Positions 10,529 through 16,034 of a DNA stretch of 37,497 nucleotides are shown piece by piece. This stretch comes from Alphaproteobacteria bacterium (lineage in GTDB: Bacteria; Pseudomonadota; Alphaproteobacteria; SMXS01), in contig JANQQJ010000007.1 of assembly GCA_028284945.1 (NCBI GenBank), positions 1 through 37,497 of the forward strand, in the 5' to 3' direction. The position numbers and the translations under genes are program-made. A model generated the notes under the pieces. That model saw only the letters and a program-made list of their open reading frames with translations, had not been told where the DNA came from and searched no databases. How positions within the stretch are numbered: the first letter of the stretch is position 1; each line of letters begins with the position of its first letter.

Positions 10529-11311
10529 ATGGCCGAATTCACCCTGCCCAAAAACTCCAAGATCAAAAAGGGCAAGCACTACAAGGCGCCAGAAGGGGCG
10601 ACCAACACCAAGACGCTTGGTGTCTATCGCTGGAGCCCGGATGACGGCGAGAACCCACGGGTCGATACCTATGAGGTCGATCTGGATACCTGCGGCCCGA
10701 TGGTTCTGGACGCGCTCATCAAGATCAAGAATGAGATGGATTCGACCGTCACTTTCCGCCGGTCCTGCCGCGAGGGCGTGTGCGGTTCCTGCGCGATGAA
10801 TATCGACGGCAAGAACGGCCTGGCCTGCACCACCGGCATTGATGAAGTAAAAGAAGGCGCCCAGATCACGCCGCTGCCGCACATGGATGTCGTCAAGGAC
10901 CTGGTCCCCGACATGACCAACTTCTATGCGCAATACGCGTCGATTGAGCCGTGGATGAAGACCAAGAGCGCCACGCCTCCTGATTCCGAACGGCTGCAAA
11001 GCCATGAAGACCGGGAGAAGCTGGATGGTCTCTACGAGTGCATTCTGTGTGCCTGCTGCTCGACATCCTGCCCCAGCTATTGGTGGAACCAGGACCGCTA
11101 CCTGGGCCCCGCAGTGCTTCTCCAGGCCTATCGTTGGCTGGTCGACAGCCGGGATGAGTATACCGGTGAGCGGCTGGACGATCTGGAAGATCCGTTCCGG
11201 CTTTATCGCTGCCACACCATCATGAACTGCGCGCAGGCCTGCCCGAAGGGCCTGAATCCGGCCAAGGCCATCGCAGAAATCAAGAGAATGATGGTCGAGC
11301 GACGTACCTGA
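10529..11311 (+). CDS. sdhB: succinate dehydrogenase iron-sulfur subunit
   Basis: Electron-transfer subunit of complex II, 260 residues. The [2Fe-2S] site is CREGVCGSC plus a later cysteine in NGLAC. The [4Fe-4S] site is [12 protein letters not shown], and the [3Fe-4S] site is in [17 protein letters not shown]. All expected cysteines are present. The start at 10529 follows TTAAGGAAGCCGAAGC. It is the last gene of the operon and meets the convergent MFS gene across a 13-base gap with no obvious terminator hairpin. Confidence 0.98.
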
Positions 11312-11324
11312 GCGCTAATCCGAC

Positions 11325-12566
11325 CTAACGCTGGTCCAATGCGCGGAAGTCGTCTCCGCGCCAAAGGGTTGTGACCAGCAGCACCCCCAGAACCAGCACC
11401 GCAACAGAGACCATGAACGGCACATCCGTGCCGAACGCCATCAGCCGGCCACCGGCCAGCGATATGATCGCGGCGGCCAGGGTAAAGAGTGCGACCGTCA
11501 CCCCCATGACCCAGCCCTGCTCGTCTTCGCCCACGGCGGACGAAAACAGCGTCAACATGGTCGGGTAGTAGACTGCGAAGGGCACCACAAACGGCACAAT
11601 CAGCACATAGGCCAGCACAGGTGATGGATTGAACACGAACAACAGTTGACTGATCGCCATCAGACCCAGGCAGACCGCGATAATGGTTGGTTTTGCATAA
11701 CGTTCGTTGACCGGGCCCACGAGAAAAGCGCTGCTGAACCCCATCGCGCCGCCAAACACAACAAGGGCAATGGAATTCTGCAATGTGTCGAACTGGAACC
11801 GCGCGAACAGGACGCTATCGAGAAAGACAAAAAAAGCATTCAGCGCTAACTGGCCGCAAAAAAATACCAGGGATAGTTTCAGGATCACCGGGCGTTGCGC
11901 CGCATGCCAGAGCGTCAGTACAACTTCCTGCGGCCTGAACACGAACTTCTGGCGCTCCATCGGCTGGTCATGAAAAAAGACCACGACCATCAGGATGTTG
12001 AGCAGTACCAGTAATGAAACAAAGTAAAACGGCAGATCGAGCGAGGCATACTGCCCGACCAGGGCCGTATCCGACAGCACGCCGCTGATCAACGGCCCTC
12101 CCACCAAACCGAGGCTGAGCGCGACCAGAACCAGCCCCATGAAACGGGTCTTTTCCTTCTCGTTTTCGCTCATATCGACCAACGCGGCCTGGGCAATAGG
12201 CTGGTTGCCGGCCGTGAAGCCCGATATCACCCGCGCCAGAATCAACAGCGGCAGGCTTTGCATATCGAGCGCTACAATGGTGAGACCGTAGCCAATCAGC
12301 GCGCCAAACAGGCAGACCAGAATGCCCGCCTTGCGCCCAATGGAGTCGGACAGTTTGGAGATATAGGCCGCGCCCAGAAACCAGCTGAGGAAGAAGATAC
12401 CCATGACCAGGCCAAAGGTCGCCTGACGGCTGGGGGCATCGGTGCCGGCTGGCAGAAACCCGCTGGCCGGGTCCATCATCAGCGTGGTCAGGATCGGGAT
12501 GACCAGCCCCTGGCTCATAATGTCCAGGAAAACGACGCAGAGCAGCGTGAACCTGGCGATCTTCAT
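11325..12566 (-). CDS. MFS transporter, DHA1/TetA-like
   Basis: A 413-residue inner-membrane carrier with about 12 hydrophobic segments. The N-terminal half opens with MKIARFTLLCVVFLDIMSQGLVIPIL and carries the motif A-like SKLSDSIGRKAG loop between helices 2 and 3, and LARVISGFTAGNQPIAQA in helices 4-5, which suits drug/proton antiporters of the Tet branch. It is the third gene of a minus-strand operon, 10 bases after the SDR-like protein. It lacks clear similarity to the ArsB, Acr3 or ArsP families as I know them. The substrate is unknown; export of a small organic or organoarsenical compound is only a contextual guess. Confidence 0.88.
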   Translation of the reverse strand: MKIARFTLLCVVFLDIMSQGLVIPILTTLMMDPASGFLPAGTDAPSRQATFGLVMGIFFLSWFLGAAYISKLSDSIGRKAGILVCLFGALIGYGLTIVALDMQSLPLLILARVISGFTAGNQPIAQAALVDMSENEKEKTRFMGLVLVALSLGLVGGPLISGVLSDTALVGQYASLDLPFYFVSLLVLLNILMVVVFFHDQPMERQKFVFRPQEVVLTLWHAAQRPVILKLSLVFFCGQLALNAFFVFLDSVLFARFQFDTLQNSIALVVFGGAMGFSSAFLVGPVNERYAKPTIIAVCLGLMAISQLLFVFNPSPVLAYVLIVPFVVPFAVYYPTMLTLFSSAVGEDEQGWVMGVTVALFTLAAAIISLAGGRLMAFGTDVPFMVSVAVLVLGVLLVTTLWRGDDFRALDQR

Positions 12567-12576
12567 CAGCGAATCC

Positions 12577-13155
12577 CTAGGCCGACAGGGTCAGCGAAAT
12601 CCCCGTCACATAGCTCTGGGGCGCACCCAATAGATGATTGAGCATGTCAGCCAAAGCCGCTTCTTCCGCAACAAAAACCACATTGGCGGTCATCGGTGGA
12701 TCCATCGGCCCGCCCTCGGCCGACGCGACCTTGACCATCTGCCGCAGCGCGCCATCCCTGATGCTCTGTGCGATTTCCGCCTCTTCGCCGGCGCCTGTCG
12801 GCCCGGCAAGGCAGAGAAAATCGACCGGCCGGTTCGCCCGTGACCGCATCGCCAGTTTGAGCGCAAACAGGCATGCGCCGATACACTCTTCAACATAGGA
12901 ATCGACGGCATCAGTAAAGGCGCCGGGAATGAAAACGATGCCGTCCGCCTCCATGCTCACGCCGTCTAGCGCAGCATCGACCTTTTCTTCGACAAAAAGG
13001 TCCGCCATGGGCGGCTCAACCACGGTGACGTTGGCCCCCTGGTCCGTCAGAGACTGTCGGCACTGGTCAACGATATCGCCGGCAACGCCGACGAGCGTGA
13101 TGGCGCGGCCATTGAGGGACTTGTTAAGCGCTTTAGCTGCCAAGGAACCCTCCAT
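12577..13155 (-). CDS. SDR-like protein lacking catalytic residues (pseudoenzyme)
   Basis: A protein of up to 192 residues that resembles a short-chain dehydrogenase but has lost its signature residues. The dinucleotide loop is VGVAGDIV rather than TGxxxGIG, the NNAG motif is replaced near IVFIPGAF, and the YxxxK position reads QSIRD. The end (SYVTGISLTLSA) still looks like the SDR C-terminus (YVTGQ...VDGG). Its start overlaps the upstream SDR: ATG 13155 overlaps by 23 bases, while TTG 13143, with GGAGG about 5 bases before it, overlaps by 11. It is followed by the MFS gene. It could be a non-catalytic partner of the intact SDR. The fold assignment is my reading of motifs, not an alignment. 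Confidence 0.7.
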   Translation of the reverse strand: MEGSLAAKALNKSLNGRAITLVGVAGDIVDQCRQSLTDQGANVTVVEPPMADLFVEEKVDAALDGVSMEADGIVFIPGAFTDAVDSYVEECIGACLFALKLAMRSRANRPVDFLCLAGPTGAGEEAEIAQSIRDGALRQMVKVASAEGGPMDPPMTANVVFVAEEAALADMLNHLLGAPQSYVTGISLTLSA

Positions 13156-13912
13156 CGACCAGAACTTCCATATCCGTAAGCGGAACCGCCGGGTTCAGCA
13201 TCATAATCAGCGCATCGGCGATTTCTTCCGGCTCGCCCCAGCGGCGCAGTGGGATTGTTTCCGCTAGCTCGGTCACCAGTGGCGAGTCCCGACCAATGGC
13301 CTTGTCGACCTGCGGCGTCATAGTGTAGCCGGGCAGAATACTCTTAACCTGCACCTTATCTGATTGATCGGCCAGCAGTTTTTCATAGACCTGGTTCATC
13401 CCCGCCATGCCGCCTTTACTGGCGCAATAGGCCACGGCACCTGCCTGCCCAATCCGGCTCAAGACCGACGACACATTGACCACCATGCCGGGGAAGCCGC
13501 GTTTGTCGTGGCCAGCTATAATATGAGGCACCGCGTGTTTGACCCCGTAATAGGCACCCGTGAGATTGACACCGATCAGCGTTTTCAGGGACTCAGCCGT
13601 TGTTTCCTCAATCGGAAACAACTGCGAAATGCCTGCATTGTTGATAAGGAAGTCAAGGCGGCCAAATCGGTCCTCAACCTCGCCCAGAACCCGCAGCCAA
13701 TCTTCCTCCGACGCAACGTCTTGACGGACATAGACCACGGGCAGGCCTTCGGCCTTAAGGTCAGCTTCGGCCTTTTTCCCATCGGCTTCAGTCCGCGCCG
13801 TCAGCACCACCGTACATCCGGCCGCGGCCATCGCTTCGGCACAGCCATAGCCGATGCCCGTGCTGCCCCCGGTGACGATGGCGACGCAGCCATCCATGAA
13901 ATCTTGCGGCAT
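13133..13912 (-). CDS. short-chain dehydrogenase/reductase (classical SDR)
   Basis: A 259-residue NAD(P)-dependent oxidoreductase of the classical SDR type. The ATG at 13912 follows AAAGGGGGATCGGA; a TTG further upstream would only add seven residues. Motifs: TGGSTGIG at 14-21, NNAG at 91-94, catalytic serine in NVSS near 148-149, Y162 and K166 in YCASK, and a C-terminal VDGGFLGS. Substrate is not evident. It is the first gene of a three-gene minus-strand operon (SDR, SDR-like partner, MFS) and is divergent from arsR with 116 bases between starts, so the arsR operator region may influence it. Confidence 0.93.
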   Translation of the reverse strand: MPQDFMDGCVAIVTGGSTGIGYGCAEAMAAAGCTVVLTARTEADGKKAEADLKAEGLPVVYVRQDVASEEDWLRVLGEVEDRFGRLDFLINNAGISQLFPIEETTAESLKTLIGVNLTGAYYGVKHAVPHIIAGHDKRGFPGMVVNVSSVLSRIGQAGAVAYCASKGGMAGMNQVYEKLLADQSDKVQVKSILPGYTMTPQVDKAIGRDSPLVTELAETIPLRRWGEPEEIADALIMMLNPAVPLTDMEVLVDGGFLGS

Positions 13913-13994
13913 TCCGATCCCCCTTTTCTCCAACAGGTAGCAGACCGAAAACCCGGACGCCGTGCAAGAGAGAAAGCGAATGGCGAAAATCTAC

Positions 13995-14035
13995 TTGATT
14001 ATTTCCATATTTCCATTATCTTCGAATTATGGAAA
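13995..14035 (+). promoter_or_regulatory. predicted arsR promoter and operator
   Basis: TTGATT (13995-14000) and TATCTT (14017-14022) are 16 bases apart. The tandem TTTCCATA/TTTCCATT (14002-14017) lies in the spacer, and an inverted ATGGAAA begins at the arsR start codon (14029). This AT-rich dyad is the only candidate ArsR site in the divergent gap. Predicted transcription would begin about at the ATG, which has no ribosome site in front of it. Confidence 0.5.
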
Positions 14036-14364
14036 AACAAACTGTCATTGAGGGCTTAGCTGCACTGGCACATGAGACCCGTCTGGATGTGTTCCGCCTG
14101 TTGGTTCAGGCGGGTCCAGCGGGGCTTCCGGCTGGTGACCTGGCCGAAGCGTTGGATGTGCCGCCACAGACTCTGTCTTTTCACCTGAAAGAACTATCGC
14201 GGGCCGGCCTGGCCACGAGCGTTCGGCAAGGCCGGTCGATCATCTATCAGCCGGCGTTCGGGCAAATGACCGCCCTGCTGGATTACCTGATGGAAGACTG
14301 CTGTGGCGGTGCCTGTGGCACGCCCTCGATGACGCCACCCCCGATCAAGGAGACCGCATCATGA
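14029..14364 (+). CDS. arsR: ArsR family arsenical-responsive repressor
   Basis: A 111-residue winged-helix repressor. The helix-turn-helix covers LPAGDLAEALDVPPQTLSFHL and LKELSRAGL, and the wing is SVRQGRSIIYQP. The metal-binding cysteines C91, C92 and C96 (EDCCGGAC) are at the C-terminus, like the C-terminal site described for Acidithiobacillus ArsR, rather than in the DNA-binding helix as in E. coli ArsR. No ribosome site precedes the ATG, so translation may be leaderless. Its stop overlaps the arsI start (ATGA). It probably represses arsRI and possibly the divergent SDR operon. Confidence 0.92.
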   Translation: MEKQTVIEGLAALAHETRLDVFRLLVQAGPAGLPAGDLAEALDVPPQTLSFHLKELSRAGLATSVRQGRSIIYQPAFGQMTALLDYLMEDCCGGACGTPSMTPPPIKETAS

Positions 14365-14768
14365 AAACGGTTCACGTCAGCCTGTCCGTCAAAGACGTTG
14401 AAGAATCAATCACCTATTACGGCTCCCTGTTTGGCCGCGAGCCCGACGTCATCAAACCAGGCTTTGCCAAATGGTGGCTTGATGACCCCCGGCTCAATTT
14501 CGCGCTCAATGAAAGCGATTCGACGACGGGTCTGCACCATCTGGGCATTGAGACTGATGACGACGACGACCTTGAGACGCTCTATGCCAACGCCAAACAG
14601 GCGGGAATTTTCGCCGAAGAAGGCGCCACGACCTGCTGTTATGCCAAATCAGAAAAGGGCTGGACCCACGATCCACAGGACATTCCGTGGGAGCTGTTCC
14701 TGACCCGCGAGCGCATTCATGATCAGGTGGAGGAAACGTCACTGGAGACGCATACCCGCTGCTGTTAA
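14361..14768 (+). CDS. arsI: ArsI/CadI family dioxygenase (organoarsenical C-As lyase)
   Basis: A 135-residue vicinal-oxygen-chelate fold protein. Known ArsI enzymes use Fe(II) and O2 to split the carbon-arsenic bond of trivalent organoarsenicals such as methylarsenite. Visible here: metal ligand candidates H5 (KTVHVSL), H60 (LHHLGIE) and E111 (PWELF), the vicinal cysteines C92-C93 in GATTCCYAKSEKGWTHDP that bind the arsenical, and a further Cys pair at the very C-terminus (THTRCC). It overlaps arsR by 4 bases. The related CadI proteins share this pattern, so the exact substrate is less certain than the family. No arsenite efflux gene lies beside it. Confidence 0.9.
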   Translation: MKTVHVSLSVKDVEESITYYGSLFGREPDVIKPGFAKWWLDDPRLNFALNESDSTTGLHHLGIETDDDDDLETLYANAKQAGIFAEEGATTCCYAKSEKGWTHDPQDIPWELFLTRERIHDQVEETSLETHTRCC

Positions 14769-14810
14769 GCAGCAGAGCGTTGCGCGGGCTTCACCGCGCC
14801 TGTACATAGC

Positions 14811-14851
14811 AAACGGCGGTCTTCCCAGGGGTCCGGAGGCCGCCGTTTCTG
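14811..14851 (+). terminator. rho-independent terminator after arsRI
   Basis: AAACGGCGG (14811-14819) pairs perfectly with CCGCCGTTT (14840-14848), followed by CTGTT. It lies 42 bases after the arsI stop and just before zapE. The T tract is short, so termination may be partial. Confidence 0.65.
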
Positions 14852-14861
14852 TTGAGGGTGC

Positions 14862-16034
14862 ATGCAACTGCTCAAAGACATAGAAGCCGGCCGGTTTGAC
14901 GGCCCCCTGCCGGGCTATCGGGCGCTGGTTGCCGAAGGCGTTCTGCAACAGGATCCGGCGCAAATCCTGGCGGCCGAAAAACTGCAGATGCTGGAGAACC
15001 GGCTGCATTCCTATACGCCGGCCGAACAAGGTGGCTGGCGCACTTTGTTCCGCCGCGAAAAGCAGGACGCGCCGCAGGGCATCTATCTCTATGGCGGCGT
15101 CGGCCGCGGAAAGTCCATGCTGATGGACCTGTTCTTCGAGACCACCTGCTTTGCACCCAAACGCCGCGTCCACTTCAACGCCTTCATGCTGGAAATTCAC
15201 AGCACCGTGCATCGCTGGCGGAGCATGTCGGAGAGCGAACGCAAAGCCGAGAACATGGCTGGCGACGACCCCATCCCACCGCTGGCACAGAAGATCGCCA
15301 AAGAGGCGATGCTGCTGTGTTTTGACGAATTTCAGGTCACCGACGTGGCCGACGCCATGATCCTGGGGCGGCTTTTTGAACACATGATGGATGCCGGTGT
15401 CGTCATTGTCGCCACGTCCAACCGGGCGCCGGACACGCTCTATGAAGGCGGGCTGAACCGGGACTTGTTCCTGCCCACCATCGAAATGCTGAAATCACAT
15501 CTTGATGTGCTGCACCTTGCGTCGCCCACCGACTACCGGATGGAGCGCATCAAAGGCATGCCGGTCTATCATGTGCCTCTGGGCGTGCAGGCAGAGCGCG
15601 AACTTGACGAAACCTTTCACGCCCTGACCGACCAAAAGGCCGGCAACCCGATGAAACTCGACGTGATGCAGGGCCGCTCGCTAACGGTGCCGGAAGCCGC
15701 TAAAGGCGTCGCCCGGTTCGATTTTGCCGATCTTTGCGAAAAACCGCTGGGTACTGCGGACTATCTGGCCATCGCTGAGGCGTTCCATACAGTCATCCTG
15801 TCAAACATTCCGCAAATGAGCCGCGACCGCCGCAACGAGGCCAAGCGCTTTGTCACCCTGATCGACACGCTCTATGAAGCCAAGGTCAAATTGGTGGCAT
15901 CGGCGGCATGCAGCCCCGGAGAGCTCTATCCTGACGGCGATGGCAGCTTTGAATTCCAGCGCACCGTCTCACGCCTGATCGAGATGGAAAGCCACGATTA
16001 TTTTGAGGACGCCACAACGGCGTGGGGAGACTGA
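14862..16034 (+). CDS. zapE: cell division protein ZapE / AFG1-like ATPase
   Basis: A 390-residue P-loop ATPase of the AFG1/LACE1 family; in E. coli ZapE acts at the constricting Z-ring, and mitochondrial relatives aid respiratory complex quality control. Walker A is GGVGRGKS at residues 78-85 and Walker B is LLCFDEFQ near 151-158, with sensor segment VIVATSNRAPDTLYEGGLNR. The late SRDRRNEAKRFVTLIDTLYE segment is also typical. ATG 14862 follows GAGGG. An AtoE-like gene starts 3 bases after its stop, then mdh follows; zapE beside mdh recurs in alphaproteobacteria. Confidence 0.93.
   Translation: MQLLKDIEAGRFDGPLPGYRALVAEGVLQQDPAQILAAEKLQMLENRLHSYTPAEQGGWRTLFRREKQDAPQGIYLYGGVGRGKSMLMDLFFETTCFAPKRRVHFNAFMLEIHSTVHRWRSMSESERKAENMAGDDPIPPLAQKIAKEAMLLCFDEFQVTDVADAMILGRLFEHMMDAGVVIVATSNRAPDTLYEGGLNRDLFLPTIEMLKSHLDVLHLASPTDYRMERIKGMPVYHVPLGVQAERELDETFHALTDQKAGNPMKLDVMQGRSLTVPEAAKGVARFDFADLCEKPLGTADYLAIAEAFHTVILSNIPQMSRDRRNEAKRFVTLIDTLYEAKVKLVASAACSPGELYPDGDGSFEFQRTVSRLIEMESHDYFEDATTAWGD

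Follow-up and report, generated by a model that had tools for sequence, protein, structure and literature searches.

An overlapping gene pair in Alpha- and Gammaproteobacteria joins a classical SDR to a probable SDR-fold pseudoenzyme partner

Results

Organisation of the locus

The window, by which we mean the whole stretch of 37,497 nucleotides that was analysed, carries a catalytic SDR gene that overlaps a smaller partner gene, with an MFS transporter gene downstream and divergent arsenic genes on the other side. The features are as follows:

11325-12566, minus strand: MFS transporter (Tet/multidrug-like), 10 nt downstream of the partner gene
12577-13155, minus strand: non-catalytic SDR-fold partner gene, 192 aa, assigned from motif loss, model fold and purifying selection
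13133-13155, minus strand: overlap of the SDR and partner genes, 23 nt, different frame; same arrangement at the gammaproteobacterial loci L038-L042
13133-13912, minus strand: catalytic SDR gene, 259 aa, ATG at 13912; motifs intact, Pfam adh_short match
14007-14044, no strand: candidate ArsR operator, overlapping the arsR start; putative function
14029-14364, plus strand: ArsR/SmtB-family regulator gene (arsR), divergent neighbour of the SDR gene
14361-14768, plus strand: arsI, ArsI/CadI-type VOC metalloenzyme (114.8 bits, just under the NCBIfam cut-off of 116)

The overlap of the two genes had already been described in the initial annotation, with the right coordinates. In the window, the start codon (ATG) of the partner is contained in the GATGG formed by the codons for the C-terminal Asp-Gly-Gly of the SDR. 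Such an overlap is likely to cause translational coupling, and the MFS gene is probably co-transcribed with the pair. No Rfam matches were found in 11200-14900, and no sigma-70 promoter matches in 11280-14100.

The first gene encodes a classical SDR

The first gene is a textbook classical SDR. It carries the full set of residues that the initial annotation had ascribed to it, namely the TGxxxGxG motif (TGGSTGIG, residues 14-21), NNAG (91-94), the Ser (S149) and YxxxK (Y162 and K166). Moreover, Pfam adh_short matches it at 4e-46, and comparison of its fold with known SDRs gave Z scores of 21-23. Arg40, which stands after β2 (strand 2), suggests a preference for NADP(H). The substrate loop (residues 194-212, PGYTMTPQVDKAIGRDSPL) is invariant at 19 of 19 positions among the six SDRs of intact pairs, and the substrate is therefore probably the same in all alpha- and gammaproteobacterial members.

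The partner has lost the SDR motifs and models as an SDR fold

The partner had been described as having lost the dinucleotide loop and the YxxxK pair, and we found this to be correct. None of the classical motifs (TGxxxGxG, NNAG, YxxxK) is present in the 192-aa protein, which at the respective sites reads VGVAGDI (Gly-rich loop), FIPG (NNAG) and QSIRD (Tyr/Lys); the gammaproteobacterial partners read GEPG, FVGR and ADIRN. Pfam gave zero matches, even at E = 1, and the sole hint of an SDR among the NCBIfam models came from a 3-oxoacyl-ACP reductase model at E = 0.021. When a profile of the partner family was run against 385 alphaproteobacterial genomes, the top three non-self matches were SDR domains (E 3e-5 to 9e-5). 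Profile-profile comparison between the SDR and the partner family aligned about 45 C-terminal columns and no more, which counts against the heteromer reading proposed below. Weak ubiquitin matches of the partner profile (HMMER against the PDB, 2e-4) were rejected as the sum of several very low-scoring polyubiquitin stretches.

Prediction of the single chain, suggested earlier as a check, indeed gave an SDR/FabG fold. The AlphaFold2 model, built from a six-row alignment, shows a Rossmann sheet with the SDR helix order (β1-αA-β2-αC-β4-αE-β5-αF-β6-αG), at moderate confidence (pLDDT 68.5, pTM 0.69, with the C-terminal 12 residues below 50). Structure comparison returned SDRs almost throughout, with Z about 13-15 across 160-180 residues for FabG/SDR structures and, for FabG, Z 14.7 over 169 aligned residues at an rmsd of 3.4. 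The top Foldseek match was a halohydrin dehalogenase (E 1.3e-4), which is an SDR relative.

Judged by its sequence and by the secondary structures in the two models, the partner has lost the Gly-rich loop, αB/β3, NNAG, the Tyr/Lys pair and the β6-αG substrate loop, while it has retained the sheet, αE, αF and the C-terminal PQxYVTG strand. Without the lost elements, it could not bind cofactor or substrate in the usual manner. In the partner from L039 a 29-residue insertion lies beside the former cofactor loop, so this site seems to be unconstrained. Sixty residues of the partner are invariant, and they lie mainly in αE, αF and the C-terminus, with 43 of 109 positions in the C-terminal half versus 17 of 73 in the N-terminal half (Fisher p 0.025); the same comparison revealed no C-terminal bias in the SDR. 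In classical SDRs, both dimer interfaces are built from αE/αF and the last strand, and the conservation pattern of the partner therefore fits a structural subunit.

The pair is conserved and under selection

A scan with the SDR as query located the pairs. It revealed six gammaproteobacterial loci (L038-L043) with 66-70% identity to the window SDR, after which the next-best SDRs drop to 37% identity. At five of the six loci (L038-L042) the partner follows the SDR directly, as a separate intact gene that is 41-44% identical to that of the window. The question raised by the initial annotation, whether relatives keep the pair together with the same start and frame, can thus be answered positively: in all five the partner ATG lies at the same place within the SDR gene as in the window. 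The overlap measures 23 nt in the window and at four of these loci; at the fifth, L040, the SDR is three residues longer and the overlap is 32 nt. Nei-Gojobori estimates of dN/dS among the gammaproteobacterial copies are 0.18-0.25 in the partner, compared with 0.10-0.16 in the SDR; the partner is thus under purifying selection, with a rate of evolution about twice that of the SDR.

The loss of motifs, the shortened protein and the faster evolution might suggest that the second ORF is a decaying, functionless SDR duplicate, and in one genome (L043) most of the partner has indeed been lost. However, the frame is intact in six genomes across the divergence of Alpha- and Gammaproteobacteria, the 60 residues mentioned above are invariant, and the selection test contradicts decay, which makes this explanation highly improbable. 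Because five gammaproteobacterial partners share the same start and show dN/dS values of 0.18-0.25, the second ORF represents a genuine, selected gene and neither a chance frame nor a gene in decay.

The SDR clade occurs in seven of 150 genomes of one gammaproteobacterial family, and partner sequence was found in the same seven (five intact copies, one cut by contig ends in genome G765, and one fused to the SDR). Since every gammaproteobacterial genome with the pair comes from this one family sample, they represent few independent lineages. Among the 385 alphaproteobacterial genomes, the partner is present in the window's genome only. A search of these genomes with the single partner protein gave chance-level matches, of which the best (L002) is a pyruvate kinase. 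Scanning the genome contigs with the partner protein alone returned no matches, presumably because the partner diverges too fast. The nearest SDRs outside the clade (at most 37% identity, L044-L117) have no partner gene within the flanks examined, and plasmids contained neither a full-length partner relative nor an SDR relative at the limits used.

These data also bear on the possibility that the partner, although derived from an SDR and made along with the SDR, has a separate job outside the mature enzyme, for example as a regulator that binds a ligand or as a chaperone of the SDR. With the cofactor loop and the substrate loop gone, so much has been lost that assembly in the manner of an SDR would be unnecessary, and the roughly twofold faster evolution points in the same direction. 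Nevertheless, the genomes searched yielded no partner without the SDR, and its most conserved parts are those that form the interfaces of classical SDRs. We therefore regard a separate job as unlikely.

Gene neighbourhood

The initial annotation had tied the pair to the MFS carrier and to arsR-arsI. These genes are present in the window as stated, but the linkage is not conserved. Within the flanks examined, no relatives of the window's MFS, ArsR or ArsI were found at the gammaproteobacterial pairs or at the fusion locus L043, so that the trio of SDR, partner and MFS, whose conservation had been proposed as a check, did not hold up. Likewise, the alphaproteobacterial MFS relatives have neither the SDR pair nor ars genes in the short flanks examined. 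As far as the contigs reach, L038, L039, L041 and L042 share upstream genes for luciferase-like, aminotransferase, MBL-fold and EthD proteins (families assigned in L042). L040 has an enoyl-CoA hydratase gene upstream and a luciferase-like gene downstream, and L043 has a kinase-like gene and a TPP enzyme nearby.

The interval between sdhB and zapE (11312-14861 in the window) is one at which genes have been gained or lost. In three genomes of genus g2, sdhB adjoins zapE, with neither ars genes nor the pair between them, and in the two genomes of the sister genus g3 (G008, G009) the order is sdhB-arsR-arsI-zapE, without the SDR pair or MFS. Within the examined genomes of its family, only the window's genome has MFS, partner and SDR between sdhB and arsR. 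The simplest reading of this comparison is that the SDR cassette was added beside a pre-existing arsR-arsI. The operator-like stretch at the arsR start has a similar counterpart upstream of arsR in the sister genome G009 (38 nt, 82%), and control of the cassette by ArsR is therefore possible. In the same sister genome, arsI reads in two frames (L147:3514-3917), either because it is broken or through a sequencing error.

The cassette might be an arsenic-responsive module, with both sides under the control of ArsR, an organoarsenical or its breakdown product as the substrate of the SDR, and the MFS protein as its exporter. The divergent genes share a common intergenic region of 116 nt, the operator-like sequence lies at the arsR start and the MFS gene follows the partner after only 10 nt. 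On the other hand, MFS, arsR and arsI are missing near the gammaproteobacterial pairs in the flanks examined, and at the same sdhB-zapE site g3 has arsR-arsI without the pair and g2 has neither. A conserved arsenic-resistance linkage of SDR pair, MFS and arsR-arsI was accordingly not found, and we consider such a module quite improbable.

Discussion

Overall, our data suggest, with a probability of roughly 60%, that the two genes encode one heteromeric oxidoreductase, composed of a catalytic SDR and a non-catalytic scaffold subunit. This reading builds on the motifs, the model fold, the co-conservation, the overlap and the purifying selection. Distant bacteria have kept both genes side by side in evolution, and the two products therefore probably function as a single enzyme with two parts. 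The SDR subunit would perform carbonyl/alcohol chemistry that is probably NADP(H)-dependent. The partner would be a minimal SDR-fold pseudoenzyme, reduced to the central sheet, αE, αF and the final strand, which may occupy two of the four positions in the SDR tetramer and lend stability or shape to the active subunits. In such a mixed tetramer, cofactor and substrate would be bound by the SDR subunits alone, and overlapping translation would provide matched amounts of both subunits. There is about an even chance that the partner represents a family of minimal SDR pseudoenzymes that has so far escaped recognition, acting as the obligate structural subunit of a new heteromeric SDR clade in Alpha- and Gammaproteobacteria.

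According to the title of von Horsten et al. 2021, as given in a citing paper, BbsCD is a heterotetramer with inactive pseudoenzyme subunits. As in BbsCD, adjacent genes encode an SDR and an inactive SDR-type subunit, the inactivity here being judged from the motifs. In the parts of the literature accessible to our search, the citation of BbsCD was the only one found for an SDR pseudoenzyme pair. In contrast to BbsCD, there is no bbs operon or benzylsuccinate pathway (beta-oxidation) at the window or at the gammaproteobacterial loci, where the neighbours are sdh, MFS, ars and zapE in the former and luciferase-like, EthD, aminotransferase and enoyl-CoA hydratase genes in the latter. Moreover, the partner is only 192 aa long and lacks the substrate loop. 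Neither BbsC nor BbsD is among the PDB structure matches listed for comparison, which excludes nothing. Most likely, the pair would form an obligate heteromer that operates as BbsCD does, though as a distinct and minimal version.

The human mitochondrial ketoacyl reductase (PDB 4cql/4cqm) is a heterotetrameric SDR with FabG-like chains, resembling the heteromer that we infer here, and the partner model matches 4cql with Z 14.0. Its subunits still bind cofactor, whereas our partner is devoid of cofactor motifs. The R-specific alcohol dehydrogenase, FabG and hydroxysteroid dehydrogenase SDRs share all motifs and the fold with the product of the first gene. They are mostly homotetramers of one gene product; unlike these, every clade member found here comes either with a partner gene or with what is left of one in a fusion.

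Within the very large superfamily of SDRs, heteromers that include an inactive subunit are a rarity. If our reading is true, the pair would be a second, very small case and would indicate that SDRs can evolve dedicated scaffold subunits. It would also mean that annotation overlooks such subunits, as no Pfam model recognises the partner. The pair is small and probably soluble; hence, the effect of the pseudoenzyme subunit on its partner is directly testable.

Genome G395 has a fusion in place of the pair, which counts against the heteromer, whereas the in-frame joining of the two proteins itself counts in its favour. On a contig of 3.9 Mb labelled as chromosome (L043:6001-6768), SDR residues 1-212 are joined in frame to the last approximately 40 residues of the partner. 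About 12 nt at the junction are common to both homologous blocks, suggesting a deletion between short matching stretches, by which the fusion was apparently made, although it could be an assembly error. As a separate observation, the partner gene of L039 (5136-5220) contains two in-frame insertions of a palindromic repeat (GAGCCCTCAGCCGGGGAGCGCGAGGGGGCACCCCTCGC), and L038 has a similar copy (5907) within a small ORF located upstream of its SDR. The repeat resembles those that insert inside genes.
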